Below are positions 13,771 to 38,532 of a stretch of 38,695 bases of DNA, in pieces. The notes below the pieces were generated by a model. That model did no database searches. It worked only from the letters and a program-made list of their open reading frames with translations, and was not told the DNA's origin. Source of the DNA: a virus; IMG/VR virus record IMGVR_UViG_3300032050_007236, positions 1 through 38,695 of that record, one strand, 5' to 3'. The translations under genes were made by a program, and so were the position numbers. The first letter of the stretch is position 1. The number at the start of each line of letters is the position of its first letter.

Positions 13771-13773
13771 TAT

Positions 13774-15509: not shown

Positions 15510-15517
15510 GAGTGAAT

Positions 15518-15796
15518 ATGTCAGAAGAAATTTGTCCACAAGAAGATTGTGTCCCTAAAGAGGACTTACCAAGTGCTATGGAAATGGCAAAGAATCTAAT
15601 GCGTGACGGTACCAAAATTATCAAGAACGCAGTAGAAGGAAACAAGACTCTCGTTGAACAGTTTGTGAGAGACAACAGATGGTCTATTTGCAACGAATGT
15701 CCACGACTACAGAACGATAGATGCTTAGAATGTGGATGCTTTATGAAGGTTAAGGTAGCATTCCAAACTTCAGTATGTCCGTTAGGAAAGTGGTGA
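15518..15796 (+). CDS. Cys-rich phage protein (DUF6171-like)
   Basis: A 92-residue protein starting at ATG 15518, which has AGGAG at 15508-15512; the GTG at 15512 overlaps that site and is rejected. The C-terminal half has two Cys pairs plus one more: ICNECPRL, CLECGCFMKVK, VCPLGKW. This C-x2-C...C-x2-C-x-C...C-P-x-x-K-W pattern is shared by small uncharacterised phage proteins and probably binds zinc. Function unknown. Confidence 0.7.
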   Translation: MSEEICPQEDCVPKEDLPSAMEMAKNLMRDGTKIIKNAVEGNKTLVEQFVRDNRWSICNECPRLQNDRCLECGCFMKVKVAFQTSVCPLGKW

Positions 15797-15797
15797 T

Positions 15798-17292: not shown

Positions 17293-17972
17293 AAATATTA
17301 TATAGAATTTCTGATGGGTCGTACAAGAAAGAAAGATTTCAACATGCCACCAAACAACATTGTGTTGAAAACTTCTTGACACATTTCCCAACAGAAGAAG
17401 TGACCATTTATGCAGATAACGTTCGAGATGAAACACTCGAATGGATTACCGCATTAGGGTGCGAAACTATCCGTACAAATGGTGGAAGTAGCGCTGCAGG
17501 ATTCCGTATCGTGATGGATGCCGCATTACAACTAGCCGATGATGAATCTGTATACTTTGTGGAAGATGACTACTTTCATTTACCAAACTCCAGAACAATA
17601 TTGCTGGAAGGATTAGAGAGGTCACATTATGTTTCCTTATATGACCATAGAGACAAATATATTCCAGCCAGTATGGGTGGTAATCCTTTTATTGATGACG
17701 ATGCAGCAGAACTTACTAAAGTCTTTGTTACTAATTCAGTTCATTGGAAACTTACTAACAGTACAACAATGACCTTTGCAACAAAGGTATCTACATTGAA
17801 GGAAGATGCTGAGATTTGGAAGAAGTATACCTCAGGCACTTATCCACAAGACTTCAAGTGTTTCCTTGAATTACGGGAAAATGGTCGTACGCTTGCTACC
17901 CCACTTCCAGGCTACAGTACCCATTGTGAACCAATGTGGGCATCACCTTTAATTGATTGGGAATCCGTATGA
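17289..17972 (+). CDS. GT-A-type glycosyltransferase-like protein
   Basis: 227 residues. The stretch SVYFVEDDYFHLPNS (about 86-100) is a clear acidic metal site after a strand, as in GT-A enzymes. It is preceded by GGSSAAGFRIVMDAAL, a loop and helix that could hold the uridine or guanosine. No Shine-Dalgarno site is visible at its ATG, which overlaps the previous stop. Donor and acceptor unknown. Confidence 0.7.
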   Translation: MKILYRISDGSYKKERFQHATKQHCVENFLTHFPTEEVTIYADNVRDETLEWITALGCETIRTNGGSSAAGFRIVMDAALQLADDESVYFVEDDYFHLPNSRTILLEGLERSHYVSLYDHRDKYIPASMGGNPFIDDDAAELTKVFVTNSVHWKLTNSTTMTFATKVSTLKEDAEIWKKYTSGTYPQDFKCFLELRENGRTLATPLPGYSTHCEPMWASPLIDWESV

Positions 17973-18700
17973 AGTATTCTATTATTATTCCTTATCGCAA
18001 CAGAGAAGAGCACTTACAAGTATTATTACCTACCTTACTTGAAAGGTTTTCTAATGAGTCATTTGAAATTATTGTATCAGAGCAAAATGATATCGACAAT
18101 TTCAGAATTGCGTGTGTTCAGAACATAGCCTATAATTACGCAAAAGGTGACATATTAATATTTCACCAAGTAGACTATATTCCAAGTGACGATGTTTCAT
18201 ATGAAGTTACGGATGTGCCGGTTCTTCCAGCTCGTCGTGGAATATTTTTAGGCAAGGACCATCAGTCACTAAGAGAGTTCAATGACATTCCTGCCGGATA
18301 TCGTGAATGGTCGCGGGAAATAGACCCACGATTTTATGGTGGAGTTATTTGTATGTCCCGTTCCCACTTTGAAACTATTAATGGATTTAACCCACTGTAT
18401 CGTGGATGGGGCAATGAGGACGAAGATTTGCGTGAACGATTTGTGTGGGCTGGATTACCCGTACACCGCAACGAGGTAGGTACCTTCTACTGTCTACATC
18501 ACGAAGATAACGGGGATATGCAAAATAAAGAACAAGAAATACAGAAAGACTTCTTTGAAGGACGTAAATATCTAATAGAGCAGGCGTATGAACAACGACA
18601 CATCGGGTATAAGAACCTTACCGCTGATGTACAGGAATCACAAACTGATATCCCGAATGTTCGTTGGTTGAAAAGTACTACCTATAAGGTGAGTGTATGA
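17969..18700 (+). CDS. GT7-like (beta-1,4-galactosyltransferase type) transferase
   Basis: 244 residues from ATG 17969, which overlaps the previous TGA; an ATG at 17957 is less likely. The start SIIIPYRNREEHLQ, the metal segment HQVDY (66-70) and the hallmark GWGNEDEDLRER (146-157) with a following Cys-x-His-His (CLHHED) match GT7 galactosyl- or N-acetylgalactosaminyl-transferases. Such enzymes use UDP-Gal or UDP-GalNAc and Mn2+. Confidence 0.85.
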   Translation: MKYSIIIPYRNREEHLQVLLPTLLERFSNESFEIIVSEQNDIDNFRIACVQNIAYNYAKGDILIFHQVDYIPSDDVSYEVTDVPVLPARRGIFLGKDHQSLREFNDIPAGYREWSREIDPRFYGGVICMSRSHFETINGFNPLYRGWGNEDEDLRERFVWAGLPVHRNEVGTFYCLHHEDNGDMQNKEQEIQKDFFEGRKYLIEQAYEQRHIGYKNLTADVQESQTDIPNVRWLKSTTYKVSV

Positions 18701-19587
18701 AGTCCTGTTTGATAGTATGTCACGGATATTTTGGTGACCACTTATTTGCAAATAGTATCGCTGAACATCTGATTGAAGAAGGTCAATTTGATGCGGTCGA
18801 TTATGTTATAGGGTTTCCACAGGTACTTCCATTCTTTGTACGAAACCCGTATGTACGAAATGTATTTATTGATGGAGTGGGCCCATCACCAAGAATCCCA
18901 TCAAATGCGAATACTTATAATAAGGTGTTCCAACTAAGACCTATAACCAGAGTGATACCACCTGCCGTTGAAGTACAAGTCGCTTGCGGAGTTAACAACC
19001 CATCACCGAGATTTCATATAAACACAGATGAAGGAATAGATAAGTTTGTCCGTGATTATTATGGTGAAAAAACTGGATTGGTTGTTGGACTAATGAATGG
19101 GTGGAAAGAACGTTCGTTCCTCTTTACCAAAGAACAATACGACAGAGGAATTGATGTACCAAACCTTGGTTATGGTGGGGCACACAGAAACACTGATTGG
19201 ATTATAGAGCAACTCGAATTAAAGTTTAATACTATACGAGTGGGAACTGAAAAGAATGTTAATCAGTTTGTGGTGCAGCACGAAGGACCGTCATTAGACC
19301 TCACCGCGTCTATCCTAAAGTATTGTGATGTATTTGTTGGTGCGGAAGGTGGGTTGGCCAATCTGGCGTACGCTGTAGGAACGGATACCATCCTTACCTC
19401 CGACTTTGTACATCAATTGTATGGACCAAACGGAGTACTACAGAAGTTACCAGAACCAAAGTTGGGTCCAATATATTATGGTGGTAAGAATACGCACATA
19501 AACTTAGACCCATATCTTACCGATGAAGATGTGTTTTTACGAATAGTAGAATGTTTAGACAACAAGAGAATGGAGATTGAACAATGA
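18697..19587 (+). CDS. GT9/heptosyltransferase-like GT-B protein
   Basis: 296 residues. The N-terminus CLIVCHGYFGDHLFANSIAEHL has the G-x-x-G-D loop of ADP-heptose transferases. The C-terminal CDVFVGAEGGLANLAYAVGT corresponds to the donor-binding D-S-G-x-x-H-L-A segment with Glu-Gly-Gly in place of Ser-Gly. Ligand unknown. AAGGTG precedes the start and the ATGA overlap couples it to the GT7-like gene. Confidence 0.7.
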   Translation: MKSCLIVCHGYFGDHLFANSIAEHLIEEGQFDAVDYVIGFPQVLPFFVRNPYVRNVFIDGVGPSPRIPSNANTYNKVFQLRPITRVIPPAVEVQVACGVNNPSPRFHINTDEGIDKFVRDYYGEKTGLVVGLMNGWKERSFLFTKEQYDRGIDVPNLGYGGAHRNTDWIIEQLELKFNTIRVGTEKNVNQFVVQHEGPSLDLTASILKYCDVFVGAEGGLANLAYAVGTDTILTSDFVHQLYGPNGVLQKLPEPKLGPIYYGGKNTHINLDPYLTDEDVFLRIVECLDNKRMEIEQ

Positions 19588-20618
19588 AAGTGTTAATTAC
19601 AGGGGTAGCTGGACTATTAGGGTCACGCCTTGCAGATTGGATTATTTACAACAAGCCCGGCACTGAGGTCATCGGGATTGATGATTTTAGTGGTGGGTAC
19701 GAAAGTAACATACATCCAAATGTAACATTTTATAAAATGGATTTGGGTAAAGAGTCAGTTGACGCAATTTTTGAACGACACCAACCAGACATTGTATATC
19801 ACTTCGCTGCCTATGCAGCAGAAGCACTGTCTCCGTTCATTCGTCAGTTTAATTATACTAATAATTTAGTTAGCACTGCGGGTATCATTAATGCCTGTAT
19901 CAAATACTCTGTAAAGCGGTTGGTATTTACTTCCTCTATGGCGGTGTATGGAGATAATATCCCACCATTTGATGAAACAATGCCACGCAGTCCAGTTGAC
20001 CCGTATGGTGTTGCAAAGATGGGTTGTGAAATTGATATTCAGATTGCAGGCGAACAGCATGGGTTAGATTGGTGTATCATCCGTCCTCACAATGTATATG
20101 GTGCAAAACAAAACATTTGGGATTCCTATCGTAATGTGCTAGGTATCTGGATGTATAAGCATCTAACTGGACAACCGCTTACTATCTTTGGTGACGGTAC
20201 ACAAATGCGTGCCTTCAGTGATATGACCGATTGTCTCCAACCGCTTTGGAACGCAGGTACCAGTTTCGTCGCATCAAAAGAAATCATTAATCTTGGTGGA
20301 ATACACGAAACCAGTATCAACGAAGCAGCAGAAACATTAATTAAGGTTATGGGTGGTGGAGAAATTGTATATCTTCCACCCCGCCACGAAGTCAAATACG
20401 CATATCCAACATGGCAAAAGTCGGTAGACCTTCTTGGGTTTGAACACAGAACCAGTCTATTTGATGGGTTGACAAAGATGTGGAATTGGGTTAAACTACA
20501 ACCTAGTAGACCACGACAAGTATGGGGAACATACGAATTAGAAAAAGGTATTTATCCATATTGGCAAAAGGAAACATTGATGGCGGAAGCTCCATCTACT
20601 CACCTATTAGAAAAGTAA
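19584..20618 (+). CDS. NAD-dependent sugar-nucleotide epimerase/dehydratase
   Basis: A 344-residue extended SDR protein, GalE-like in layout. TGVAGLLGSRLADWI (6-20) is the NAD loop. HFAAYAAEALSP, TSSMAVYG, YGVAK (Tyr/Lys catalytic pair) and RPHNVYG follow in order. It could epimerise UDP-glucose/galactose or convert the Gmd product; the motifs alone do not decide. GGAG precedes the ATG, which overlaps the previous stop. Confidence 0.88.
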   Translation: MKVLITGVAGLLGSRLADWIIYNKPGTEVIGIDDFSGGYESNIHPNVTFYKMDLGKESVDAIFERHQPDIVYHFAAYAAEALSPFIRQFNYTNNLVSTAGIINACIKYSVKRLVFTSSMAVYGDNIPPFDETMPRSPVDPYGVAKMGCEIDIQIAGEQHGLDWCIIRPHNVYGAKQNIWDSYRNVLGIWMYKHLTGQPLTIFGDGTQMRAFSDMTDCLQPLWNAGTSFVASKEIINLGGIHETSINEAAETLIKVMGGGEIVYLPPRHEVKYAYPTWQKSVDLLGFEHRTSLFDGLTKMWNWVKLQPSRPRQVWGTYELEKGIYPYWQKETLMAEAPSTHLLEK

Positions 20619-20625
20619 TTATAAT

Positions 20626-21432
20626 ATGATAACGGTTATTGTCCCAAGTTATAGGAATCCAAAGTATCTTGACTTGTGTTTAAAATCTATTACAGAAAAT
20701 AAGGTATTAGATTCCACACAAGTTATTGCGGTTATTGATGGGTATGTAGCAGAAAACCAAGAGGTGATGAGTAAGTATCCTACTGTCGGGTTTCTTCCAT
20801 TTGAAGATAATATGGGAATGCAATATGCCATCAACGCTGGCGTGATGCAAGCAGAGACAGAATACGTATTTGTAGTAAATGATGATAACGTATTCCCTAC
20901 GAGATGGGACGAGCGGCTGACGGACTCTATCAAAAAAATTAAGGATGAACAGTTTGTTATTACCGTCAACCAAGTAGAACCGACTGGGCCTGGGATGTTT
21001 AATTTTCCGGTAGTGGACCTGGGACAAAGCGTTGATACCTTCTTGTATGACCAGTTTTTGGATAATGAAACAAAATTAGCAAGCCAACAAATCACCAGTG
21101 ATGGTCATATTTTTCCATTCGTAATGAAGAAAAAGCATTTTATGGCTGTGGGTGGTTTCGATACATTCTATAATAGCCCTAACATCTGTGATTGGGATTT
21201 CTTTTTAAAGTTAGAGCTACTGGACTTTGCGTTTCCACGAATACACTCGTTGCATTTATATCACTTTGGTTCAGTATCTACAAAGAAAAATGCAGAGAGT
21301 GCAACATTCCGTGAAAAGGAACAAATAGCGATGGAACAATATATGTGGAAGTGGGGTACGCCACCATATAATCAAGCCAACATAAACAGTAAAGTTCCGC
21401 CAACTAAACAATTTCGAGGGTTTCGTGTATGA
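20626..21432 (+). CDS. GT2-family glycosyltransferase
   Basis: 268 residues. The GT2 opening ITVIVPSYRNPKYLDLCLKSI is followed by VIAVIDGY, the helix with DNMGMQYAINAG and the metal motif VVNDDNVFPTRWDERL (83-98). The acceptor-side VGGFDTFYNSPNICDWDFFLKL has the expected acidic ED/WD-type position. No Shine-Dalgarno site is evident. It ends the continuous sugar cluster, overlapping the next gene. Confidence 0.87.
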   Translation: MITVIVPSYRNPKYLDLCLKSITENKVLDSTQVIAVIDGYVAENQEVMSKYPTVGFLPFEDNMGMQYAINAGVMQAETEYVFVVNDDNVFPTRWDERLTDSIKKIKDEQFVITVNQVEPTGPGMFNFPVVDLGQSVDTFLYDQFLDNETKLASQQITSDGHIFPFVMKKKHFMAVGGFDTFYNSPNICDWDFFLKLELLDFAFPRIHSLHLYHFGSVSTKKNAESATFREKEQIAMEQYMWKWGTPPYNQANINSKVPPTKQFRGFRV

Positions 21433-26644: not shown

Positions 26645-28735
26645 TTATAGTATCTTTTCTAGTTCTTTGATGACCATATCTGCGGTAATCTCACGGGAAC
26701 ATTCGAATTGTCTCAGAGTTCCTTTATGATCTGGGCACCAGTTCCAATCGCCTGGGTCAAACTTATGTCGGTTCCAACATCCAGAACATTTTCCTTTTGG
26801 TGCAGATATTCTGATACAATCCTGCATCTCATTGAATGGTTCGGTGAACCCACTTATCATCACGGTTGGTGTTCCCACCGCCCAACTTACCCAGCTCAAT
26901 CCACTACTGATACCTATGAATGCCTTTGACCTCTTTAATTCTTCTATAACTTTATCAATAGGTGACCTTGGAAATTGTTCTACCCCAGCAGGATTTCGGT
27001 TTCCCATATATCCATCTTCTTCTTGGGACAGTAGTTTTACGGTATAACCTCGTTCTTTCAACCAGTTTACTACTTCTTGCCACCCAAATGGATTATTCCA
27101 GTATTTAGATTGGGCAGTAGAGTGTGTGGCTATGGTCACTAACTTGGAATCTGTATTATCTATGTCGGGTTGTTTTACTTTTGGTTGTATTTCTTTGTAT
27201 TCTAATCCCAATATATCTGATGCTATTTGCTGTAAAGAAACACTTATCGGGTTGGTTGGGTGTTTATCGCTGTCAAAAGTATTACCTGTATGAAATAATC
27301 CAATTACGTACATAGCCATAAGATTATGAGCTGTCTCACCTGGGGTGACAAATGTAATTTCTGGATATTCTGATATGAACAAGTCATTCCAGAAGGTAGA
27401 GCATATTACTTCGCAATTATGTTTCTTTCTAAATTCATCTACATAAGGAATCCAGGCAAAAGTATCTCCTAAAGATTTAGAATCCAAAGCAATATATACC
27501 CGATTTCCTTTTAATTCTAAATTATATGCCATTGACTGTCCCGTATTCTTTTCGGTAATTTCTACGCGCCAATCAACATAATATTTTATATTTGGTTTTG
27601 CCCAAGAATTACGAGTCAACTCGGTGTTATAAACCACAGTATCGGTTTTCTTATCAATAAACTTTACGGAATATTTTATATCTTGTCCGCCAAGGATTTC
27701 AGCAAACATTCCATTTATACAATTGAAATTAAACTTTCTCACCTGTGACTTCTTTAGTATTGGTGTATTCTTATAGTGATTTATTAATTGTTTTTTCATA
27801 GAAGGTAACTCATTTGTTGTATAGATAGATACTAACTCTTTTGTTCTGTTGTACCAATCTAATAGTTCTGCATGTTTTCTGGCAGAAGTCGTATATGCCG
27901 TGTAATTCTCTATAACACGCTGTATCCCCTGCACAACCGCACCTACTTCCGCCTCTACAATTTCCATACCATCTAAACTATTGTTCTGCTCAAATGTTCC
28001 CACCACTGGTAATCCGCAAGACAAAGCTTCTACCAATGTTAAGTTTGGATGTCCTGCTTCCAACTGAGAAGGATGTAGAAATATACTATGGTTACGATAT
28101 ACTGTCAATAGTTCTTCTTCTGACAAGTCATATAGAATAGTTAGTTTATCGTATGTTGGTGGATTCTTCTCAAAATAATTTTTATTGTTAGATGGACCAG
28201 CGATTGTGATTGGGAGTCCCAATCTCTGTGCTGCTTCTATAGCAATACCAAATCCTTTACGGTCAATTGATTGGTCATACGCATACCCATTATTAGCCAC
28301 ACATAATAATTTATGAATAGGTCTAGTATCTGGTCCAGAGAAATATAAAGTGTCTACTCCGTGAGAGAAATACTCTGGGATTCCCTCAAAATAATCTACA
28401 AGGTATTTTGCAGGAACAAACGATTTTATAGAACCCCGCATGGCCTGTAAGTTTTCTTTATATACTGGAGAATCTTTTCCATATAGATACGCATGGTGGT
28501 CGTGAAATGTAAAATAGTAGGGTATACCAACCTCTTGTAGTTCTAATGCTAAATTTGCAATGTGAACATGTACAACATCATGCTCCCCGTGTTTTACTTC
28601 ACTTCTATATAATATACGAGATTCGTGATTTAGATTTAATAAGTTCTTATGGGTTTCCCAAATAATCTTTTCTACCGCACCCCACCCATTCGGAGGAATA
28701 GGTATAAGTCCAGGCGTTACATTTACTATTCGCAT
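26645..28735 (-). CDS. GT4 fused to TibC/Aah-type O-heptosyltransferase (BAHT)
   Basis: A 696-residue two-enzyme protein. Residues 1-310 form a GT4 glycosyltransferase: GWGAVEKIIWETHK (17-30), the donor motif LHPSQLEAGHPNLTLVEALSCG (220-241) with the E-x7-E pair. Residues 334-696 match bacterial autotransporter heptosyltransferases: YVDWRVEI, RVYIALDSKSLGD (412-424), WNNPFGWQEV (546-555), FIGISSGLSWVSWA (606-619), ISGFTEP, and the iron-finger cysteines C650, C653, C667, C679 (CSGCW, WCPDHKG, FEC). These enzymes attach sugars to Ser in strand-loop-strand repeats of adhesins. It is the last gene of the minus-strand virion operon, close to a Ser/Thr-Gly-rich fibre, its likely acceptor. Confidence 0.88.
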   Translation of the reverse strand: MRIVNVTPGLIPIPPNGWGAVEKIIWETHKNLLNLNHESRILYRSEVKHGEHDVVHVHIANLALELQEVGIPYYFTFHDHHAYLYGKDSPVYKENLQAMRGSIKSFVPAKYLVDYFEGIPEYFSHGVDTLYFSGPDTRPIHKLLCVANNGYAYDQSIDRKGFGIAIEAAQRLGLPITIAGPSNNKNYFEKNPPTYDKLTILYDLSEEELLTVYRNHSIFLHPSQLEAGHPNLTLVEALSCGLPVVGTFEQNNSLDGMEIVEAEVGAVVQGIQRVIENYTAYTTSARKHAELLDWYNRTKELVSIYTTNELPSMKKQLINHYKNTPILKKSQVRKFNFNCINGMFAEILGGQDIKYSVKFIDKKTDTVVYNTELTRNSWAKPNIKYYVDWRVEITEKNTGQSMAYNLELKGNRVYIALDSKSLGDTFAWIPYVDEFRKKHNCEVICSTFWNDLFISEYPEITFVTPGETAHNLMAMYVIGLFHTGNTFDSDKHPTNPISVSLQQIASDILGLEYKEIQPKVKQPDIDNTDSKLVTIATHSTAQSKYWNNPFGWQEVVNWLKERGYTVKLLSQEEDGYMGNRNPAGVEQFPRSPIDKVIEELKRSKAFIGISSGLSWVSWAVGTPTVMISGFTEPFNEMQDCIRISAPKGKCSGCWNRHKFDPGDWNWCPDHKGTLRQFECSREITADMVIKELEKIL

Positions 28736-29553
28736 AGTAGGTAGTCCAATACTTCGTTTGTGGATTTTTCTTCCTTAAACCCGTGATATAATAGAACTTT
28801 ACTAGAGTCATGTATATACTCCCAATCAGCTCCAGTTTCGTCTAAATTCTTTCCAAGTCGCGTGTCAGCTACAGCAGACTCTTCAGTTAATTTAACAGTA
28901 TTGATGTCGTGAGTGTTTACGAATATAAATCCTAAACTCTCAGTACCTCCGCGTTTCCAAATACAAACATTAAATGAAGTTTCATCGTGAAATGGGTAAT
29001 ACCACTTGCGTCTAGAAATTAGATACTCATTCTTACACATAGAAGTGTATTCTTCAAAGAACTCTTGACAGTTTCTATTGAATACATAGAAGCACGACCA
29101 CTGGTATCGCACAGACTTATCTTCTACATTAAAATACTTCATTAATAGCTTTTCATTGTACTCTTGGTAGTTACTTCCATCGGCGTCACGTGACCAAATA
29201 AACGGTAATTCGTGTGGTCCGAACACTCCCAACGCATAGTTGTGATTATGTTTTAGTTTATGAAAGTCCATCCGATGAGAGAAGAGTATGTCTGTATCTG
29301 TGAAGATGAAGTCTTGCTCATCTGGAAACATTTTCATTACATCTAACGACAATTCTGCCTTGTAATAATGGAATGTAGGATAGTTTCTTTCTGGAATCGG
29401 TACTTTTATTAAGTTTTTAGTTTCAAAGGAACTAATGAATCCTATCGTAAAATACACTACTTTAATATCATCGGTCAGATGTGGTTTCATTGACTTGATA
29501 CAAGTAATTGCCTGATGTTCGCAAACTTTATTTGTATATAAAAATATAACCAT
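28726..29553 (-). CDS. GT-A-type glycosyltransferase
   Basis: 275 residues with a clear metal-binding motif DFIFTDTDILF (D86-x-D88) after a strand-rich start MVIFLYTNKVCEHQAITCI. The YQWSCFYVFN and HDETSFNVCIW stretches resemble acceptor and base-positioning regions of GT8-like enzymes. Its start is one base after the stop of the upstream gene, and its end overlaps the next gene by ten bases. Donor unknown. Confidence 0.8.
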   Translation of the reverse strand: MVIFLYTNKVCEHQAITCIKSMKPHLTDDIKVVYFTIGFISSFETKNLIKVPIPERNYPTFHYYKAELSLDVMKMFPDEQDFIFTDTDILFSHRMDFHKLKHNHNYALGVFGPHELPFIWSRDADGSNYQEYNEKLLMKYFNVEDKSVRYQWSCFYVFNRNCQEFFEEYTSMCKNEYLISRRKWYYPFHDETSFNVCIWKRGGTESLGFIFVNTHDINTVKLTEESAVADTRLGKNLDETGADWEYIHDSSKVLLYHGFKEEKSTNEVLDYLLCE

Positions 29554-29554
29554 T

Positions 29555-31531
29555 TTACTTTACCTTAGTTGCGAATATACATTCACTTGTTCCTGCTGCT
29601 TCAAATTGATTTGGCTTAAACTCTTCTACCGTGTATCCCATTAATTTTATTTTATTTAACATCGTAGTATATTTTTGTTTGTAATCCTTTTCGAAGAAAT
29701 GGCATTCTAAGAAAATATTATTTACATTTTTAAAAACCGATGGGTCTGCGTGTAAGATGATATCGTATTCCGCTCCTTCGATATCAATCTTCAATAAGTC
29801 TATTTCACCGTATGTACTGGTCAATTGCTCTAATGTTACAGTAGGAACTATCTCGGTCACATTACCCTTTACTCCAGCCATATGTGATTCCAGTCTATCA
29901 GGAGATAAGGTACTACTGATAACTGGATTATCTGGTGAATGGTAGAATGTGATTGGCTCTGGTGAATGGTGTAGTGCCTTTGCCAAAACAGTAACCGTAG
30001 TATTATGTTTAAAGTTTCTTTGTAAGTCTTTCAATGCTTTCTTGTCACATTCAATCGCAACAATCTTCTTGGCAAAATCATTCATTAACATATATGAACT
30101 GAATACGCCTACATTTGCACCAGCGTCAACAACGGTTTTATATGGCTTGTTTAACCACTTACCGTATTTTTGGTGAACAAAGTATTCTAAGAAATTAAAT
30201 TGGTATGGGACAGAATTACTGAGGGTCAGTGTAGGCAAGTTAACATATGTGTGTACATATGGATGCTCATACAACTGCTCTCCCGTTTCGTTGTTATAAA
30301 TGCAAAGCTTAACCCCCATAAAGTTAGGGTCATGTTCATATGAATGTACATGCTTATCAACCGGACGCATCCAATATTCAATATATGGTGCTAAGGAATC
30401 CATTACCGATGACCAGAGTACCGCATTAGATTTATATTCTTTTAATGAAATTAATATTGGAAAATCTATTGGTTGGTCTACCGAATAATATATTTGTTGT
30501 TCTTGTAGACTCCATCGAGATGTAAACTTATGATTTGATTTCATTTTTATAGAGGGTGTGGGTACATAGTCTTTTACTAACTTTTCTGCAATACGATATG
30601 CATTCTTCTGCAAATCTTCTGTAAGATACTCAATTGTTTCGTATTTGTCAAAGTATCCCATATAAACTGGAAGATTGTAAATCAATGACGGCACCTTCCA
30701 CCCTAATGATTCTCGGATGACAAGGGGCATAGTTTCCATATCAGTTGCGTGACCACGGGAGGTAAATAGGAATAAGTCTGCGGCTTCATAAAAGTTATCC
30801 ACATCTGTCCGTTCATTCCACCACTTACAGTTTGATGGAAAGTCTTTCATCAGTGGTCCCCAATAGAATTTGAAGTTGTCAGCTTGATTCCCAATGAAAT
30901 GGAACTGAATCGGGTAATTTTGTAACACCCGTGCATATTCAATAATCTCCGCTTGGTTCTTACGGGGAGTAAACAATCCTACATTAATTACATGCTTAAG
31001 ATTGGGGTCCAGTCCAAGGTCACGAAGTGCTTGTTCTCTGGTCTTGGTTCTGACTTTATTCTCAATAGGATATTCGACCACATCGCATGGGATGTCAAAC
31101 TTTTTATATAGGTTTTCTTGATACTTACTCACCATCAAGAACTTATCTGGCAAATACACTTTGTTGTCTGTATTATATCCAGAATCGTGTGAGGTTTCTA
31201 TAATAGAATAGTTTCTATCGGATGAATACAGTTTATCTGCCACATCTCCTTGCATGAACAGTTCGGGGATTTCTTGTAGATGAATAATGTCTGGCTGAAT
31301 TTTCTTAATTACATCGAAAAGTTCATGCTTATTTTCCCCAAGGGTAATCAATCGGTCACCTAATAGATTGACTACTTTGTTACGCTGGACAACAAGAACC
31401 CCACCTGTCACATTACCCCATTCAACACAATAGACCTCACAATCATCCTTAATGAGTTCTATTTGTTTGACGAGGTATTGGGGCATTCCGCCCGTTGACA
31501 GATGGGGTGCAATAAAAACCACTTTTTTCAT
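29555..31531 (-). CDS. GT4 glycosyltransferase fused to FkbM methyltransferase
   Basis: 658 residues. The first ~330 are a GT4 enzyme: VFIAPHLSTGGMPQYLVKQ (5-23), NVGLFTPRKNQAEI (183-196), and FTSRGHATDMETMPLVIRESLG (256-277) with its acidic pair. Residues 380-440 form a beta-rich linker like that preceding the BAHT domain of the neighbouring gene. The FkbM domain starts at about 465: VVDAGANVGVFSSY (467-480) and LLKIDIEGAEYDI (579-591), both canonical. It would add and then methylate a sugar. A short gap with an imperfect palindrome (31540-31557) precedes it. Confidence 0.88.
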   Translation of the reverse strand: MKKVVFIAPHLSTGGMPQYLVKQIELIKDDCEVYCVEWGNVTGGVLVVQRNKVVNLLGDRLITLGENKHELFDVIKKIQPDIIHLQEIPELFMQGDVADKLYSSDRNYSIIETSHDSGYNTDNKVYLPDKFLMVSKYQENLYKKFDIPCDVVEYPIENKVRTKTREQALRDLGLDPNLKHVINVGLFTPRKNQAEIIEYARVLQNYPIQFHFIGNQADNFKFYWGPLMKDFPSNCKWWNERTDVDNFYEAADLFLFTSRGHATDMETMPLVIRESLGWKVPSLIYNLPVYMGYFDKYETIEYLTEDLQKNAYRIAEKLVKDYVPTPSIKMKSNHKFTSRWSLQEQQIYYSVDQPIDFPILISLKEYKSNAVLWSSVMDSLAPYIEYWMRPVDKHVHSYEHDPNFMGVKLCIYNNETGEQLYEHPYVHTYVNLPTLTLSNSVPYQFNFLEYFVHQKYGKWLNKPYKTVVDAGANVGVFSSYMLMNDFAKKIVAIECDKKALKDLQRNFKHNTTVTVLAKALHHSPEPITFYHSPDNPVISSTLSPDRLESHMAGVKGNVTEIVPTVTLEQLTSTYGEIDLLKIDIEGAEYDIILHADPSVFKNVNNIFLECHFFEKDYKQKYTTMLNKIKLMGYTVEEFKPNQFEAAGTSECIFATKVK

Positions 31532-31539
31532 ATGTATAA

Positions 31540-31557
31540 AACCTTTAATTAAAAGTT
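31540..31557. repeat. 18-base imperfect palindrome
   Basis: AACCTTTAATTAAAAGTT is self-complementary apart from one G-T pair. It lies in the 32-base gap between the adhesin-like gene and the GT4-FkbM gene on the minus strand. It could be an operator or an mRNA hairpin; no T-run follows. Confidence 0.35.
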
Positions 31558-31563
31558 AATATG

Positions 31564-32817
31564 TTATGGGCATGTACCAGTTGATACAACAGCGCCACCG
31601 TCCCAACTAATATAACCAACGCCACTTGGACCGCCTGGATCTCTGTAATATCCGGCCGATGCGTAAGTACCAGTTTTGTTACTGAATAATTGTAGTGTTC
31701 CTGCTATGGTACCTGCTCCATCGTTATAGAACACCGTAGTAGTTGTTGCAGCACATACTTCGTTGGTTGTAGCATACGGACCAATACCCGTAATAGCATA
31801 TACTCTGATTATTTGTACTGCGTTTTCTAAATTATTAGTAACAACTGTACTAGTGTGCGCAGGTATGGTTGCATCTCTGAACTGTACACTACTTTCTATA
31901 TTGTACTGTGCTCCCGGCCACGACAAACTGTACAAATTTGCAGTAAGACTTGCACTGTAATATGGAAGGTTGTTTGTCGGACTAAGTGGTGGGTCCGTCA
32001 CGGTCACATTTATTGTATCAATAGTTACAAGATTATCTGACCGTATTGTTTTGAAATACAGTAATGCGTCTCCTGCTCTATCTGACAAAAATTCAGGAGT
32101 CCATTGAAGTACTACATACAATGGGTCACCTGCTTCTAAGAAAATTTTGGGAGGATTATCATTATTTGCTACCGGGAACTTATAAGTAAAAGTTTGTGGT
32201 TGACCCGGCGTAAAGTCATCCCACGCAAAATAATTTAAATCCACATCATGCCAAAGACCATGTAGTGTGCGACCCGGATTCGTTCCTAATCTGGTATACG
32301 GACTACCATCTTCAGTAAATGGTGGGGCTATCGGTGTTAGTCCACTTTTAGTTTTTTTAATAGAGGTTAAAACATTGTTAAGTGCATCACCTGCTTCGGT
32401 ATACAAAGTATCACTAATGGTGCCGCCGTCGGCGGGTGAAGCTGCGGTTAAGTTACCATCATCAGTAAAGATTGATGAGGTTGGTCTTGTTCTAAAATCC
32501 GCAGGATACGCTACTCCTGGAATTGCCGTAGTTTTGTATACATTCGTCCACGACAAGTTTCCACCACCACGTGTAATGTTGTTTACATTACCGGCGGTAT
32601 TTGATTGTGGAATGATTGGACCTTGTGTCGGGTCTTTATTAACACCGTCGAGTTGTGCTTGCATGGCATTTGACAAAGCTTCTCGCTTTGTCACCAAAAC
32701 CGCATTCGATGATGTAGTGGACCCAATAACTCTTCTTTCAAAAAAGTTTGCTGTTGAGGCTGTTCCTCCTAATGTGGCCTCAACTCCGTGGTCAAATCGT
32801 GCATAATATCTAGCCAT
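31564..32817 (-). CDS. Probable virion adhesin/tail structural protein
   Basis: 417 residues, rich in Thr, Asn and Gly. ARYYARFDHGVEATLGGT opens it; later segments (LWHDVDLNYFAWDDFTPGQ, LEAGDPLYVVLQW) read as beta-sandwich domains, and the end (TTTVFYNDGAGTIAGTLQLFSNKTGTYASAGYY) resembles modules at the ends of phage tail proteins. I recognise no named family. It has its own strong promoter (32845-32873) and heads the glycosyltransferase genes. Confidence 0.6.
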   Translation of the reverse strand: MARYYARFDHGVEATLGGTASTANFFERRVIGSTTSSNAVLVTKREALSNAMQAQLDGVNKDPTQGPIIPQSNTAGNVNNITRGGGNLSWTNVYKTTAIPGVAYPADFRTRPTSSIFTDDGNLTAASPADGGTISDTLYTEAGDALNNVLTSIKKTKSGLTPIAPPFTEDGSPYTRLGTNPGRTLHGLWHDVDLNYFAWDDFTPGQPQTFTYKFPVANNDNPPKIFLEAGDPLYVVLQWTPEFLSDRAGDALLYFKTIRSDNLVTIDTINVTVTDPPLSPTNNLPYYSASLTANLYSLSWPGAQYNIESSVQFRDATIPAHTSTVVTNNLENAVQIIRVYAITGIGPYATTNEVCAATTTTVFYNDGAGTIAGTLQLFSNKTGTYASAGYYRDPGGPSGVGYISWDGGAVVSTGTCP

Positions 32818-32844
32818 ATTGAATACTCTCTGTATTAATTATTA

Positions 32845-32873
32845 ATTATAATACTTCTATAAATATCTGTCAA
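32845..32873 (-). promoter_or_regulatory. Perfect-consensus sigma70 promoter (minus strand)
   Basis: Read leftward: TTGACA (32873-32868), exactly 17 bases, TATAAT (32850-32845). Transcription would start near 32838, about 20 bases before the ATG of the adhesin-like gene. It contains the 13-mer shared with the region upstream of the fibre gene. Confidence 0.85.
32857..32869. repeat. 13-mer copy 1 (CTATAAATATCTG)
   Basis: Identical to 36246-36258. It lies 40 bases upstream of the minus-strand adhesin-like start and contains TATAAATA on the plus strand, the T4 late-promoter core, which points away from that gene. Confidence 0.5.
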
Positions 32874-32891
32874 GTGTACATTTGTATTTGT

Positions 32892-33425
32892 TTAACATGC
32901 TGATGTATCGCAAAAACCATTACAGCATGCACCAGAACAACAGGTTGAACCATCAATACAAGCGTCCCCCAGCGGAGAACACAGCGTACAGATTTCAGTC
33001 GCAGTTATAGTACCATTAGTAAAGGTATAACAAGTTTGTCCAGAGAATGTACCACCAGAACATGCGGTTGGAGGAATAAACTTAGTGTTTATCAAGGTAG
33101 TACATACATTATCGCCCGTATAATATAATGAATTAAAACTATATACTGAAACGTTGCAACTTACTGCACCATTACATATATTATAACAAGTGTCCCCAGT
33201 TTTACCATCTGCAAAGAACGAAGCCTTTTTACTGTGGTCGTAACTCCACCATTCACTTATTGCATCTGGATTGGTTGGTGTTGGATATGGATTTTCACAG
33301 TTTTGAATTGGACTAAAAAACCCATCCGCTGCGCGACCAATATCAAAACCAGGCTGTGAAGGCACACCAAGTTCTATTCTTATTTGATTAAAACTAATTA
33401 AATTCCCAGTACTTGGTAATACCAT
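32892..33425 (-). CDS. Virion protein with cystine-knot-like Cys-rich end
   Basis: 177 residues. The N-terminus (LPSTGNLISFNQIRIELGV) matches a short domain common at the start of phage tail-fibre-associated proteins (S-x-G-x-ISFxQIxxELG). The middle holds spaced Cys and many Ser/Thr. The last 32 residues contain nine cysteines, with the spacing C149-x6-C-x5-CC-x3-CC-x3-C-x4-C, like an inhibitor cystine knot. Such an end may be a stable receptor-binding tip. It starts three bases after the fibre gene stop, so both are co-transcribed. Confidence 0.7.
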   Translation of the reverse strand: MVLPSTGNLISFNQIRIELGVPSQPGFDIGRAADGFFSPIQNCENPYPTPTNPDAISEWWSYDHSKKASFFADGKTGDTCYNICNGAVSCNVSVYSFNSLYYTGDNVCTTLINTKFIPPTACSGGTFSGQTCYTFTNGTITATEICTLCSPLGDACIDGSTCCSGACCNGFCDTSAC

Positions 33426-33428
33426 AAC

Positions 33429-36212
33429 CTAGTCCGTCCCTAATTTCTTCTTCAATTCATCAATTTGTTTTTGTTGTTCTTTGATTGCTTCAATCAGTAA
33501 TCCAACTATATTGCCATAGGCAACGGAATATTGGTCAATATCTTTTGCATAACTAACCACTTCTGGAATCACTTTCAATGTTTCTTGTGCGATTACACCG
33601 ATACCTCGTTTGTCTTTATCCTTCCAATCAAAGTATACACCACGAAGTTCCATTACTTTCTTTAATGCATCTTGAATAGTTACAATATTTTTCTTTGCTC
33701 GTTCATCAGAATACGCGGTGATATTGTCGGTTCCATAGATTTCGCCGTTCACGTGAAGTGGGTACGATGGAGCACCGCCGATACCCAATCGACTATTGGC
33801 ACTATCCCATCGTAGATTTGCGTAGCTGGTTAACGTAGTTGCTCCAGAGAAAACTGCTACACGGTCTGCCGTACCACCACTAATCGTTCCTGCGCCGGAA
33901 GTACCAGCGGTCCCCGATACTCCCGATGTGCCGGATGACCCGCTGGTTCCGTTGGCACCATTTGCTCCAGAAGTACCAGAACTGCCACTCGTACCATTTG
34001 CTCCAGATGTTCCTGAGCTACCCGATGACCCAGGCGCACCATTGTTACCAGATGTTCCTGATGAGCCACTTGATCCTGGTGCGCCATTGTTACCAGAGGT
34101 ACCAGAGGTACCAGAACTGCCGGATGAACCAGGCGCTCCATTATTTCCTGAGGTACCTGAACTACCTGTTCCTCCACTTGTACCGGATGTTCCTCCACTA
34201 CCAGACACACCTGGGAGTCCCATAGCACCATCTCTACCAGATGAACCCGATGAACCCGAGGTGCCTGATGTTCCTGTAGAACCACTACTTCCAGATGTTC
34301 CCGATGTACCAGAACTTCCGCTTGTTCCTGCCGTTCCACTACTTCCTGCGGTTCCCGATGTTCCCGCACTTCCCGATGTGCCTGATGTTCCTGCCGAACC
34401 ACTGGTGCCAGTTGTTCCAGAACTTCCGCTTGTTCCCGTTGTTCCAGAACTTCCACTTGTGCCCGTAGTTCCTGAACTACCCGAAGTGCCGCTAGTACCA
34501 CTACTTCCGCTTGTTCCATTTTGACCAGATGTGCCTGAGCTTCCATTTTGCCCTGATGTACCGGCACTTCCGCTTGTTCCTGTTGAACCTGAACTGCCTG
34601 AAGTTCCCGTGCTACCGCTTGAGCCAGATGTTCCACTTGTTCCTGAACTACCGTTTATGCCAGATGTTCCAGAACTTCCGCCGCCACCTGTTGGACCCGG
34701 TAATCCCATTGCCCCATCGCGGCCAGAACTGCCAGAAGTACCTGATGTTCCACTTGTGCCCGCGGACCCAGATGTACCAGCAGTGCCACTTGTTCCAGAA
34801 CTACCAGAAGTTCCAGTTGAGCCTGAACTACCAGCTGTGCCAGAAGACCCAGATGAACCTGAGGTACCTTGGACTCCAGATGTTCCAGAACTACCATCAA
34901 AATAGTTAACGTTTTTTATCGGTGTGTATCCAGATGAACCCGCAGTGCCAGAACTACCGGCGGTCCCCGATGTTCCACTGGTTCCTGCTGTACCGGATGT
35001 ACCCACAGGTAGTTGTGCAACAATTAATAAAACATTTTCATCATTTGAGAATGAATATGTTGATTGAACTAATACTATTGGGAATGTCCAGTACGCATTG
35101 GGTCCAGTTTCTACACCAGTCCCCACCGTCCATTTTTGAAAATTACTTGAATTGTCCGCATCTTGTATTACTATCAACGACCCTGATGGGATGATAGCTA
35201 AGAAAATATCTATATCTTCATTATTTTGGTCTAAATGGCTTACGACAAGTTCCGTAGCTGATGCTTGTGTAGCGTTGTTCCAGAGGATATGACCACTACC
35301 AGGATTACCTGATGTTGCATTTGTGTTTGCTTGATATGGGAACAAGTCATTGGACTGTCCGTCTTTACCACTAGTTCCAGCTGTACCAGATGTGCCCCCA
35401 CTACCCGACACGCCGGGTAACCCCATAGCACCATCACGACCTGAGCTGCCTGATGACCCCGATGTTCCTGCGCTACCAGAAGTACCCGAGCTACCAGAGG
35501 TACCTGAAGTTCCTGAACTACCTCCAGTACCAGATGACCCCGAAGTACCAGAACTTCCAGTAGTTCCAGAAGTACCAGAAGTACCATTTATGCCAGAGGA
35601 GCCTGACGAGCCAGCGGTACCAGCGGTTCCACCACCGCCGACTGGGCCTGGAAGCCCCATTGCGCCGTCACGGCCGGAACTACCCGATGTTCCTGTACTT
35701 CCAGAAGTACCAGATGTACCATCTCGTCCAGAAGAACCCGATGTACCCGGATTACCTTGATTACCTTGTATACCAGGAAGACCCATTGCTCCATCTCTTC
35801 CACTTGAGCCTGAGGTTCCTGCCGTTCCTGCCGTTCCAGATGTACCATCTGCTCCAGATGTACCAGAACTACCACCGCCACCTACTGGACCTGGAAGCCC
35901 CATAGCTCCATCTCTACCAGAACTACCTGATGAACCTGATGAACCTGGTGCTCCGTTTGCGCCACTAGTACCGCTGGTACCAAATGTTTCTCCACTAGTT
36001 CCACTACTACCCGCAGAAGAACCGCCGCCTACACCAGCGATTAGATATCCACCGGGTTTATTGTCGCCGGCGTGTAATCGAATAACTCCAAATCCACTTG
36101 CTGTTGTGGATTCTATATCCGCAGTAAGAACGCCAGGCAATCCAACATACGCAGCGTTAGACCCTGACGTTCCTCGTAATATCTGAAATTCTGTGATATT
36201 ATTATTTGGCAT
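33429..36212 (-). CDS. Collagen-like tail fibre with S74 chaperone domain
   Basis: 927 residues. The N-terminal domain (1-60: EFQILRGTSGSNAAYVGLPG then RLHAGDNKPGGYL) resembles the particle-binding start of phage fibres. Gly-X-Y repeats dominated by GTS, GSS and GTA occupy about 62-286 and 404-772, including six copies of GRDGAMGLPG. A globular insert sits at about 287-403, and a short break (YTPIKNVNYFDG) at 429-440. The end (773-927) has a neck then an S74 endosialidase-type self-cleaving chaperone: AYSDERAKKNI with Ser835-Asp836 at the cut site, GVIAQE and a final coiled coil. AGGAA precedes the ATG. The repeats offer hundreds of Ser/Thr for O-glycosylation. Confidence 0.9.
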   Translation of the reverse strand: MPNNNITEFQILRGTSGSNAAYVGLPGVLTADIESTTASGFGVIRLHAGDNKPGGYLIAGVGGGSSAGSSGTSGETFGTSGTSGANGAPGSSGSSGSSGRDGAMGLPGPVGGGGSSGTSGADGTSGTAGTAGTSGSSGRDGAMGLPGIQGNQGNPGTSGSSGRDGTSGTSGSTGTSGSSGRDGAMGLPGPVGGGGTAGTAGSSGSSGINGTSGTSGTTGSSGTSGSSGTGGSSGTSGTSGSSGTSGSAGTSGSSGSSGRDGAMGLPGVSGSGGTSGTAGTSGKDGQSNDLFPYQANTNATSGNPGSGHILWNNATQASATELVVSHLDQNNEDIDIFLAIIPSGSLIVIQDADNSSNFQKWTVGTGVETGPNAYWTFPIVLVQSTYSFSNDENVLLIVAQLPVGTSGTAGTSGTSGTAGSSGTAGSSGYTPIKNVNYFDGSSGTSGVQGTSGSSGSSGTAGSSGSTGTSGSSGTSGTAGTSGSAGTSGTSGTSGSSGRDGAMGLPGPTGGGGSSGTSGINGSSGTSGTSGSSGSTGTSGSSGSTGTSGSAGTSGQNGSSGTSGQNGTSGSSGTSGTSGSSGTTGTSGSSGTTGTSGSSGTTGTSGSAGTSGTSGSAGTSGTAGSSGTAGTSGSSGTSGTSGSSGSTGTSGTSGSSGSSGRDGAMGLPGVSGSGGTSGTSGGTGSSGTSGNNGAPGSSGSSGTSGTSGNNGAPGSSGSSGTSGNNGAPGSSGSSGTSGANGTSGSSGTSGANGANGTSGSSGTSGVSGTAGTSGAGTISGGTADRVAVFSGATTLTSYANLRWDSANSRLGIGGAPSYPLHVNGEIYGTDNITAYSDERAKKNIVTIQDALKKVMELRGVYFDWKDKDKRGIGVIAQETLKVIPEVVSYAKDIDQYSVAYGNIVGLLIEAIKEQQKQIDELKKKLGTD
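33897..35003 (-). repeat. Gly-Ser/Thr collagen-like repeat block 2
   Basis: Encodes residues 404-772 of the fibre: three-residue Gly repeats, mostly GTS/GSS/GTA, ending with several copies of GNNGAPGSSGSSGTSG. Codons vary between copies, so the protein repeat is better conserved than the DNA. One short break occurs at the FDG segment. Confidence 0.85.
35355..36029 (-). repeat. Gly-Ser/Thr collagen-like repeat block 1
   Basis: Encodes residues 62-286 of the fibre. Four of the six GRDGAMGLPG units lie here, separated by GTS/GSS runs. The block is split from block 2 by a non-repeat insert (35004-35354). Confidence 0.85.
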
Positions 36213-36387: not shown

Positions 36388-38532
36388 ATGACCAAGCACA
36401 AAGCACACAGTTCCTATTGGGTTGACGATACTTCCGTCTTTGATTTCGATACGGAGGATGTCAATAAGGATGAGCTTGACGTTTCTGCGGGTATTGACCG
36501 TATCGTGAAGCTTGCTACGATTCGTCGAGCTGTTGCCAACTTCGTTCGTATTCTCACGAATGATTCTTCTATTCATGTTAAGTATTCGTCAGGTCGGGAT
36601 TCATACACCGATGGTAAGACGGTGGTGATTTCGGCTGACCACAATACTTCAAACTTTGACCCGATGGTTGGTCTTGCTTTGCATGAAGGGTCGCACTGTC
36701 TCCTTTCTGATTTCGGTTTCCTTCGTGCGATTAATCAACATCACGAAGTGTTCTACTCTGCGCTTCATCCCGACCTTCGGAAGTTGGTGAAGGTGAAGGC
36801 GGTTCGTGACGGTAATTATGATGTTTATGACAACATGCGTGAGAATCAGGCTATTCTCAATACACTTCGTCGGTATATTCAGCAGTTGATGAATATCATT
36901 GAGGACCGCCGTATTGATTCGTATGTGTATCGTTCGGCTCCTGGCTATCGTCCGTACTATGATGCGATGTATAAGAAGTATTTCTTTAATTCTGATGTGG
37001 AAAAGAATCTCCAGTTCAATCCCGACTGGCGTAAGCCGACTGTGGAGAATTATGTGAATTGGCTTCTTATGATTTTCTCTCCGCACTTTGACAAGAAGGC
37101 GTTGCCGGGGCTGTCCAAGATGGTAGATATGATTGACCTCCAGAACATTCGTCGTTTTGATGAGAAGCATATGCCGGATTCTATCCGATGGAAGAAGTCT
37201 GGTGCGGTTGTATCCAATCCTGTTGCTGATAATGAACTTGTTGTTTACCATTATGACCAGTTCCCGCTTCTGTGGAAGACTGCGAACGAGCTGATGGTGG
37301 AGATTCTCAAGCGCGCCAAGTTCTATGCTGACCAAGAGGATGAGAACAATTCTGGCGATGATGGAATGGATGGTATTCCTATTGAGATGGAAGATGATGG
37401 CAAGGAGCTGGAGGGTGAGGGGATGCCGAATTATGACCTTCCACAGAAGAAGTTTAATGCGGGTAGGGGTAAGAAGGCAATGGAGAAGATGAAGGACATT
37501 CAGAATCAGACTGCTCGTAAGAAGAAAATTAAGAAGAATGAGCAGACGCAGATTGAGTCTATGGAATCTGCGGCGGCTGAAATGTCGGAGAATTCTGACC
37601 CGATTTATGGAAAGGTTCCGTGCCTCGTTACGAAGAAGCTCACGAAGGAAATTATGAAGTCGGATTGGTTCCCATTTGCGAATGTGTGGGCGTTTAGTGG
37701 TGATGGTACGTGGCGCGACTCTGACCGTAACCAGACCTATCGTGGATTCCTTGCTGGGATTCGTATGGGACAGGTTCTCGCTCATAAGTTGCAGGTTCGT
37801 AACGAGCCGCAGATTACACACTTTACTCGTCAAGAGCATGGGAAGATTGACCGCCGTATCCTCTCGCAGTTGGGAATGGATATTGAGAATGTGTTCAAGC
37901 GGACTACGGTTGATTCGTACAATCCGGCTCTTCTCTATCTGTCGGTGGATGCCTCTGGTTCGATGTGGGGTGGCAAGTGGGAGCGTGTGATGACGGTGAT
38001 GACGGCTCTTGCCTTCGCCGCTGATAAGATTCGTAATCTTGATGTGGTGATTTCGCTCCGTGGAAATGTCGGTAGTGGGATTCCGACTGTGGCGGTTGTG
38101 TATGATAGCCGTGTAGATACGTTCGTCAAGGCGAAGGCACTGTTCCCATACCTTGCGTCTAACGGTTCTACTCCTGAGGGATTGTGCTACCACAGCACGA
38201 TTGAGTTGATGCAGGAGTGTGTCAAGACGCACACGGTATACTTCATCAACTTCTCTGATGGTGAGCCGGGGTGCTCGTTCAGCCACAACGGAAAGCGGTT
38301 TGACTATGGTGGTGAGCAGGCGATGAAGCAGACCAAGAATACGGTTCGTATCATGCGTGAGATGGGGATTCGTATTATGAGTTACTTCATTAGTGACTAT
38401 CATTCTCACAATGAGTCCTACACGACGAAGTTCTTCCGCAATATGTATGGGCAAGAGGCGGAGTTCGTGGATGTAAAGAATGTGGTGAATGTTCTTAAGA
38501 CCTTGAACAAGCTCCTACTGATTAAGGAATAA
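36388..38532 (+). CDS. CobT-like protein: HExxH metalloprotease-like domain + VWA
   Basis: 714 residues. An N-terminal zinc-peptidase-like motif, LALHEGSHCLLSD (H99, E100, H103), is followed by NIIEDRRID with a candidate third ligand (E172). Residues 330-410 are an acidic then basic low-complexity linker. A C-terminal von Willebrand A domain has an intact MIDAS: DASGS (D521, S523, S525), T595 in GSTPEG and D624 in FSDGEP. This matches CobT/DUF2201-type VWA proteins that work with a MoxR/CobS-type AAA+ ATPase; such pairs occur in T4-like phages. No ATPase is in the window. Codon choice is GC-richer than in the sugar genes. Confidence 0.85.
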   Translation: MTKHKAHSSYWVDDTSVFDFDTEDVNKDELDVSAGIDRIVKLATIRRAVANFVRILTNDSSIHVKYSSGRDSYTDGKTVVISADHNTSNFDPMVGLALHEGSHCLLSDFGFLRAINQHHEVFYSALHPDLRKLVKVKAVRDGNYDVYDNMRENQAILNTLRRYIQQLMNIIEDRRIDSYVYRSAPGYRPYYDAMYKKYFFNSDVEKNLQFNPDWRKPTVENYVNWLLMIFSPHFDKKALPGLSKMVDMIDLQNIRRFDEKHMPDSIRWKKSGAVVSNPVADNELVVYHYDQFPLLWKTANELMVEILKRAKFYADQEDENNSGDDGMDGIPIEMEDDGKELEGEGMPNYDLPQKKFNAGRGKKAMEKMKDIQNQTARKKKIKKNEQTQIESMESAAAEMSENSDPIYGKVPCLVTKKLTKEIMKSDWFPFANVWAFSGDGTWRDSDRNQTYRGFLAGIRMGQVLAHKLQVRNEPQITHFTRQEHGKIDRRILSQLGMDIENVFKRTTVDSYNPALLYLSVDASGSMWGGKWERVMTVMTALAFAADKIRNLDVVISLRGNVGSGIPTVAVVYDSRVDTFVKAKALFPYLASNGSTPEGLCYHSTIELMQECVKTHTVYFINFSDGEPGCSFSHNGKRFDYGGEQAMKQTKNTVRIMREMGIRIMSYFISDYHSHNESYTTKFFRNMYGQEAEFVDVKNVVNVLKTLNKLLLIKE

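Follow-up and report, generated by a model that had tools for sequence, protein, structure and literature searches.

The stretch analysed here is the IMG/VR record IMGVR_UViG_3300032050_007236 (38,695 bases, 40.7% G+C; the whole of it is called the window below), which belongs to an aquatic phage. A minus-strand run of six open reading frames (ORFs) at positions 26645-36212 is best read, with a probability of roughly 0.7, as a virion-glycosylation cassette in which the BAHT half of a GT4-BAHT fusion would act on the stalk of a collagen-like tail fibre, and GT4 and FkbM domains would finish the glycan. More specifically, the BAHT-like half of the 26645-28735 product is proposed to act in the infected cell's cytoplasm, where it would move a sugar, most likely heptose from ADP-heptose, onto Ser and Thr hydroxyl groups along the (Gly-Thr/Ser-Ser)n stalk. 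The GT4 halves of this product and of the 29555-31531 product would lengthen the glycan, the FkbM domain would O-methylate it, and the end product would be a densely glycosylated collagen-like tail fibre. Protein families, the fold, the conserved catalytic base and iron-finger cysteines, co-occurrence in viruses, pairing with Gly-Thr-Ser (GTS) repeats in bacteria and synteny were observed directly. From these we infer the identity of the acceptor, heptose as the sugar, the order of the enzymes and a benefit to the virion.

The fibre (33429-36212) matches the Pfam families Collagen (PF01391, 231 bits against a cut-off of 27.2) and Peptidase_S74 (PF13884, 54.5 bits, cut-off 22) as well as PHROG tail-fibre families. 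A total of 573 residues, 262 of which are Ser or Thr, were found in runs of at least five Gly-x-y triplets between residues 78 and 775, which is close to the figure of about 590 repeat residues in the first-pass annotation; GTS occurs 64 times among the triplets and GSS 48 times. After 1000 shuffles of the protein such runs contained 12 residues on average and 81 at most. The repeat is maintained as protein, because the arrays in the DNA match at only 65-80%, with a perfect 25-base array as the single exception, and the Gly, Ser and Thr codons are mixed. In the viral relative L003 the module is followed by genes for the tail sheath, tail tube and baseplate hub, and together with the PHROG matches this suggests that the fibre is carried on the virion tail. 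A virion module had been proposed at the outset; its support comes from these tail genes in L003, outside the window.

The GT4-BAHT fusion proposed earlier is confirmed by family, structure and model searches. TIGR04414, which describes the TibC/Aah family, is matched by the 26645-28735 product at 294.3 bits (cut-off 200), and a phmmer search of the PDB gave 196 and 192 bits to TibC, with two weak matches for the GT4 half. The AlphaFold model, built from a 30-row alignment, has a predicted local distance difference test score (pLDDT) of 92.0 and a predicted template modelling score (pTM) of 0.90. Its first 21 PDB matches are TibC chains, the best with a template modelling (TM) score of 0.90 (4rap), followed by GT9-type enzymes such as WaaC with a TM score of about 0.5. 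The available part of the TibC study (eLife 03714) gives Asp110 as the catalytic base, Thr226 and Lys230 as residues touching the phosphate, Trp305 as touching the heptose and Cys339, Cys342, Cys358 and Cys370 as iron ligands. The first four are kept in the window enzyme as Asp424, Thr540, Lys544 and Trp615, and the four iron-finger cysteines as Cys650, 653, 667 and 679. On sequence and model, the BAHT half is predicted to be a protein glycosyltransferase, with heptose as the putative sugar.

These features also bear on two roles by which phage glycosyltransferases are mostly explained in the available parts of PMC12619734, PMC10202952 and PMC7029224, namely modification of the host surface and of DNA. 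Remodelling of the host lipopolysaccharide, for example to exclude competing phages, would agree with the role proposed for glycosyltransferases in the pelagimyophage host-recognition region (PMC7029224, seen in part) and with a second run of sugar genes in the window (11333-21432), but it is quite unlikely for an enzyme that is of the TibC type by fold and residues (TM about 0.9, compared to about 0.5 for WaaC/WaaF) and whose type pairs with repeat proteins in bacteria. Modification of the phage DNA, which is often assigned to phage glycosyltransferases (PMC12619734 and PMC10202952, in the parts available), is hardly credible given the BAHT fold and residues, the position next to a gene for a fibre and the pairing of bacterial relatives with GTS repeats.

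Co-occurrence was examined in viral records picked by DNA pattern, either Ser/Thr-rich (S/T) Gly-x-y or Gly-Pro-x, regardless of BAHT, and in a third control set picked by a motif which is also present in the window phage and which carries the label ThyX by motif, not by a family search. Each of the three pattern scans gave at least 120 stretches. The S/T pattern demands Ser as TCN at some positions and so samples part of such fibres; the median share of Ser/Thr among the x and y residues is 0.84 in this set, compared to 0.21 (with Pro at 0.23) in the Gly-Pro-x set. At least 12 Gly-x-y triplets were counted by script in 103 S/T loci (L119-L238) and in 81 Gly-Pro-x loci (L239-L357) among the matches listed, so that some Gly-Pro-x records are chance matches. 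BAHT was sought by tblastn, which replaced a regular expression that missed most loci, in 50 of the 51 listed S/T records of at least 40 kb (the shortest was omitted), in 49 Gly-Pro-x records of at least 30 kb (34 of them at least 40 kb) and in 50 ThyX records, comprising 20 listed records of at least 30 kb and 30 unlisted ones of any length, 19 of the set being at least 40 kb. One record (L125) matched both repeat patterns and was counted in the S/T set only.

BAHT matches over the cut-off were found in 27 of the 50 S/T-repeat records, in none of the 49 Gly-Pro-x records and in one of the 50 ThyX records (Fisher's test, 1e-10 for S/T versus Gly-Pro-x and 2e-9 for S/T versus ThyX; p 2e-4 against the 1/19 ThyX records of at least 40 kb). 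The sole BAHT-positive ThyX record carries long S/T repeats itself, and the only other ThyX record with at least ten collagen matches has neither a BAHT match nor an S/T-type repeat in the stretch fetched. In 15 of the 27 records BAHT and the S/T pattern are no more than 10 kb apart, where 6.2 such records are expected (p 1.5e-4); a 28th BAHT match (193 bits) is below the cut-off and is omitted from this distance test. Clamp-loader relatives were considered as a matched control and rejected, nearly all of the 38 records being short. The first-pass annotation had suggested surveying related phages for the joint presence of the repeat fibre and BAHT, and in these relatives BAHT does go with Ser/Thr repeats. 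A few large aquatic phage lineages might carry both genes without any functional link, as the viral sets are phylogenetically unmatched and both genes occur in large phages with T4-like parts. Such co-inheritance is very unlikely in our view, since the pairing recurs in methanotroph chromosomes with varied gene orientation and the distance between BAHT and repeat in phages is below that of random placement.

Relatives of BAHT abound in IMG/VR (220 of 227 candidate stretches, of which the best 80 were taken) and occur in two viral architectures, a GT4-BAHT fusion and a BAHT alone behind a GT4-methyltransferase protein. Scanning for the GT4 half led to 37 fusion loci, in all of which GT4 and BAHT form a single open frame; 23 of the 26 loci with at least 4 kb upstream have a GT4 like that of the 29555-31531 product upstream of the GT4-BAHT gene. 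Collagen matches are present in 21 of the 37 GT4-BAHT records and in 19 of the 20 that are at least 28 kb long. For the BAHT-alone lineage, in which L005-L010 are near copies in the genes compared, a collagen match was found in 14 of 36 records (8 over the cut-off), and among the nine records of at least 60 kb six have at least 29 collagen matches and one has a single weak match. The repeats fetched from six BAHT-alone records (five of at least 60 kb) contain 74-90% Ser and Thr and 0-1% Pro in the x and y positions. The lack of a nearby S/T repeat in 76 of the 80 first-round BAHT loci was considered as a refutation and rejected, since S/T Gly-x-y ORFs were found elsewhere in long records of this lineage.

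Of the 40 loci of this lineage with at least 6 kb upstream, 39 show a match to a giant S74 protein that is rich in Ser and Thr. It is this neighbour, together with the distant Gly-x-y fibres of the lineage, that would favour another virion protein (the 417-aa or 177-aa product, the giant S74 fibre, the tube or the capsid) as the acceptor, with the Gly-x-y fibre as a mere neighbour. Glycosylation of mycobacteriophage capsids and tail tubes has been published (cited in the available part of PMC12619734), and a Thr-rich ORF lies near BAHT in L059. On the other hand, BAHT is strongly enriched among S/T-repeat records and its bacterial relatives pair with GTS repeats outside any phage context, and we regard another acceptor as unlikely. 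The ORF in L059 (4215-5579, plus strand; 455 aa) has mucin-like Thr-rich repeats and lies two larger genes upstream of the GT4 and BAHT genes; it is a candidate for another O-glycosylation target. Another virion protein, the host surface, DNA and co-inheritance are all less well supported than glycosylation of the fibre stalk.

The bacterial counterparts were found in a GTDB scan, which gave 67 BAHT relatives. All five of the closest (46-48% identity) have an adjoining GTS-type repeat protein, identified by script in four and by eye in L532, and the script found no such neighbour in the other 62. One of the five, L534 (JAIOYD010000068.1), is a 7.5-kb contig in a Rickettsiaceae metagenome-assembled genome, with BAHT and an 871-aa S/T Gly-x-y protein. 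Its other genes are virion-like, and it appears to be a phage contig placed in the wrong bin. In the order to which Methylobacter luteus belongs, eleven of 201 genomes have TIGR04414 matches over the cut-off, seven at 304-327 bits and four (five loci) at 654-663 bits, the latter being classical. A GTS-repeat protein adjoins BAHT in six of the seven genomes with the 304-327-bit type, whereas the classical loci have a strand-loop-strand (TIGR04415) neighbour in three of four scanned and no GTS repeat in those four. Within one bacterial order, two BAHT branches go with two different repeat types. The Gly-Thr-x (GTx) pattern occurs in 13 of the 201 genomes, comprising six of the seven with the phage-like BAHT type, none of the four classical ones and seven others (6/7 versus 7/194 other genomes, Fisher's test 1.4e-7). 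GTx repeats without a TIGR04414 match over the cut-off were seen in G254, G258, G284, G304, G364, G391 and G400 of this order. The repeat gene lies upstream in the same direction in some methanotroph chromosomes and downstream and convergent in others.

A tree of 82 of the 123 non-redundant BAHT domains separates a classical branch from a phage-plus-methanotroph branch with a support of 100/100. In the acetic acid bacteria L581, L585, L586 and L587, two BAHT-type domains occur in tandem, and the upstream copies form a branch of their own. Because of the pairing with GTS repeats in bacteria, the acceptor assignment is stronger than it would be from co-location in one phage. O-glycosylation of the fibre repeat, which the first-pass annotation had put forward from co-location, therefore gains support from comparative genomics through both the viral co-occurrence and the bacterial pairing, and the Gly-x-y repeats are likely the acceptor. 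We also consider it rather probable that an undescribed BAHT-like branch, mostly with an altered donor pocket, has the class of collagen-like (Gly-Thr/Ser-Ser)n repeats as acceptors, in large aquatic phages as 'glyco-collagen' stalks and in methanotrophs as secreted GTS-repeat proteins.

Several observations weigh against heptosylation of the fibre stalk, the first of them at the donor pocket. TibC Arg286, which contacts adenine and whose replacement by Ala abolished or largely diminished activity (eLife 03714, available part), corresponds to Val596 in the window enzyme, and in the alignment 64 of the 74 phage rows and all eight bacterial GTS-type rows likewise have a residue other than arginine. 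Best NCBIfam scores of RfaE-like genes carried downstream of BAHT in other phages are below the cut-offs (rfaE_dom_II, 100.7 against 181.5; rfaE_dom_I, 116.9 against 345), and no heptose-synthesis gene was seen in the window. As regards the acceptor, 23 of the 50 S/T records have no BAHT over the cut-off, although records may be fragments. The co-occurrence test is weakest in that its sets are phylogenetically unmatched, and some records are near copies. None of 76 BAHT-alone loci has an S/T Gly-x-y repeat in the fetched flank, the fibres of long BAHT-alone records lie about 40-50 kb from BAHT, and two of the nine such records of at least 60 kb have no collagen match. In the huge-phage record LR756504, BAHT occurs without a collagen match anywhere in the 636 kb, and the seventh methanotroph genome has no GTS-repeat protein within about 4.5 kb of BAHT.

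Ten of the 74 phage rows, none of the eight bacterial GTS-type rows and 39 of the 40 classical rows retain Arg286. The ten phage rows comprise L600, L603 and L116 together with seven diverged fusions from the range L099-L115, and these seven stand beside the phage branch in the 82-domain tree and on the classical side of the midpoint root as drawn in a smaller tree. As Arg286 is Val596 in the window enzyme, we file it as a member of a BAHT-like branch and not as a classical BAHT; the loss makes the donor uncertain, and 'glycosylation' is surer than 'heptose'. If the loss reflects another nucleotide donor, the sugar may not be heptose, which within the reading of a BAHT-like branch is possible but the less probable case. 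Pro300 sets the stereoselectivity of TibC and has Ser294 as its Aah equivalent. The window enzyme has Ser610 here, like Aah, and Gly is found in 53 of 74 phage rows and in all eight bacterial GTS-type rows.

A supply of the donor by phages was looked for in the BAHT-alone lineage. In loci with at least 1.5 kb downstream of BAHT, an RfaE2-like gene follows in 52 of 72 and an RfaE1-like gene in 41 of 72; both lie directly after BAHT in L008 (11098-12229), with equivalents in L005-L080. The RfaE-like phage gene matches phrog_7878 at 134 bits, and related kinases in cyanophages carry the annotation carbohydrate kinase or ADP-heptose synthase. GmhA was seen in one of 46 records searched. From these gene contents, a phage-carried supply of ADP-heptose is possible.

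The GenBank phage records in which BAHT turned up are those of Microcystis phage Mel-JY01 and of three huge phages. In Mel-JY01 (PP395634) an S/T-repeat open frame lies in one row with a 'structural protein' and a fusion with a C-terminal BAHT. The open frame (L647, 2-3049, plus strand) encodes 1016 aa with 21 S/T Gly-x-y runs, and the two hypothetical proteins on the opposite strand in GenBank are probably a wrong-strand annotation. In LR756501, an S/T-repeat ORF, a GT4 resembling by eye that of the 29555-31531 product and a GT4-BAHT gene lie side by side.

The six ORFs of the run are listed in Table 1; their coordinates and strand agree with those first given. The GT4-FkbM fusion was borne out by matches of the 29555-31531 product to PF00534 (40.7 bits), PF05050 (63.1 bits, cut-off 22.7) and TIGR01444 (90.7 bits, cut-off 37.7). 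Other early labels fared less well, and those of the 275-, 417- and 177-aa proteins stay unconfirmed because no family match was informative. For the supposed GT-A enzyme (28726-29553), Pfam and NCBIfam gave nothing at E 0.01 and PHROGs gave a single weak match to a family that has no name; its AlphaFold model is poor (pLDDT 45.7, two sequences aligned). The products of 31564-32817 and 32892-33425 have no Pfam, NCBIfam or PHROGs match at E 0.01: nothing was found for 'adhesin-like' in the former, and in the latter the 16 cysteines uphold 'Cys-rich' and 'tip-like' is left without a family match.

Table 1. Open reading frames of the proposed glycosylation cassette in the window
Position	Strand	Product	Evidence
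33429-36212	-	927-aa collagen-like tail fibre, (Gly-Thr/Ser-Ser)n stalk at residues 78-775, S74 chaperone at the C-terminus; proposed acceptor	PF01391, PF13884, repeat count and shuffles
32892-33425	-	177-aa Cys-rich protein, no assigned function	16 Cys; 37% identical homologue in the same place in L001
31564-32817	-	417-aa protein, possibly virion	66% identical homologue in L001
29555-31531	-	GT4 and FkbM methyltransferase fusion; proposed glycan extension and O-methylation	PF00534, PF05050, TIGR01444
28726-29553	-	275-aa protein, possibly glycosyltransferase (putative)	54% identical homologue in L002
26645-28735	-	GT4 and BAHT-like protein O-glycosyltransferase, BAHT at about residues 350-695; proposed initiating enzyme	TIGR04414, TibC match, AlphaFold model, residues

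Elsewhere in the window, a 714-aa protein (36388-38532) with weak PHROG matches and no Pfam or NCBIfam match is 99% identical in L001, whereas the adjoining fibre module has diverged. The second sugar-gene run (11333-21432, plus strand) contains genes for a GDP-mannose 4,6-dehydratase and an epimerase, and GT4, GT2, galactosyltransferase-type and FkbM genes. A 296-aa protein (18697-19587) has a partial, weak TIGR04414 match (20.9 bits) and no Pfam match at E 0.001, and is perhaps a distant GT9-like enzyme. A search of the window for tRNA genes found none.

The proposed system resembles TibC/TibA and Aah/AIDA-I (eLife 03714, available part) in TIGR04414 membership, fold, catalytic base, Lys230, Thr226, Trp305 and iron-finger cysteines, and in that the gene adjoins a Ser/Thr-rich repeat protein. 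It differs in that the window enzyme is in a separate branch, has lost Arg286, is fused to GT4 and is phage-borne, and in that the neighbouring repeat is Gly-x-y and not strand-loop-strand; the three window proteins upstream of it have no TIGR04415 match at E 0.01. The expectation that Ser in repeat strands would be modified in the TibC/Aah manner thus holds for the position of BAHT beside an S/T repeat and not for the repeat type or for Arg286. As in mycobacteriophages (Freeman et al. 2023, cited in the available part of PMC12619734), phage glycosyltransferases would act on virion proteins, but the acceptors there are capsid and tail-tube C-termini, whereas a Gly-x-y stalk and a BAHT-type enzyme are proposed here.

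Collagen-like phage tail fibres (PF01391, S74, PHROG families) share the Gly-x-y stalk and the S74 chaperone, but in the window the x and y residues are mostly Ser/Thr and not Pro-rich, and a BAHT-type enzyme is encoded alongside. Bacillus BclA and the mimivirus collagens also have Gly-x-y repeats that bear O-glycans, with methylated sugars in BclA, and differ from the window system in enzymes and repeat composition. The BAHT enzyme family is already known, as is one phage member named 'Glycosyltransferase Aah/TibC' in UniProt (A0A6J5SVC1). The open-access literature searched yielded no report of phage-encoded BAHT or of GTS repeats as BAHT targets, nor was anything seen there of the Gly-x-y link, the phage GT4 fusion, the branch that lacks Arg286 or the pairing shared by phages and methanotrophs.

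A repeat-linked pair of enzyme and acceptor in many large phages and in bacterial chromosomes points to a testable function, the glycosylation of receptor-binding fibres, and the cultured phage Mel-JY01 and named methanotroph strains carry the candidate pair. For an enzyme family whose structure is solved, the pairing predicts a new rule for acceptors, and glycosylation of the fibre could influence how stable it is, how hosts are recognised and how phages diversify.

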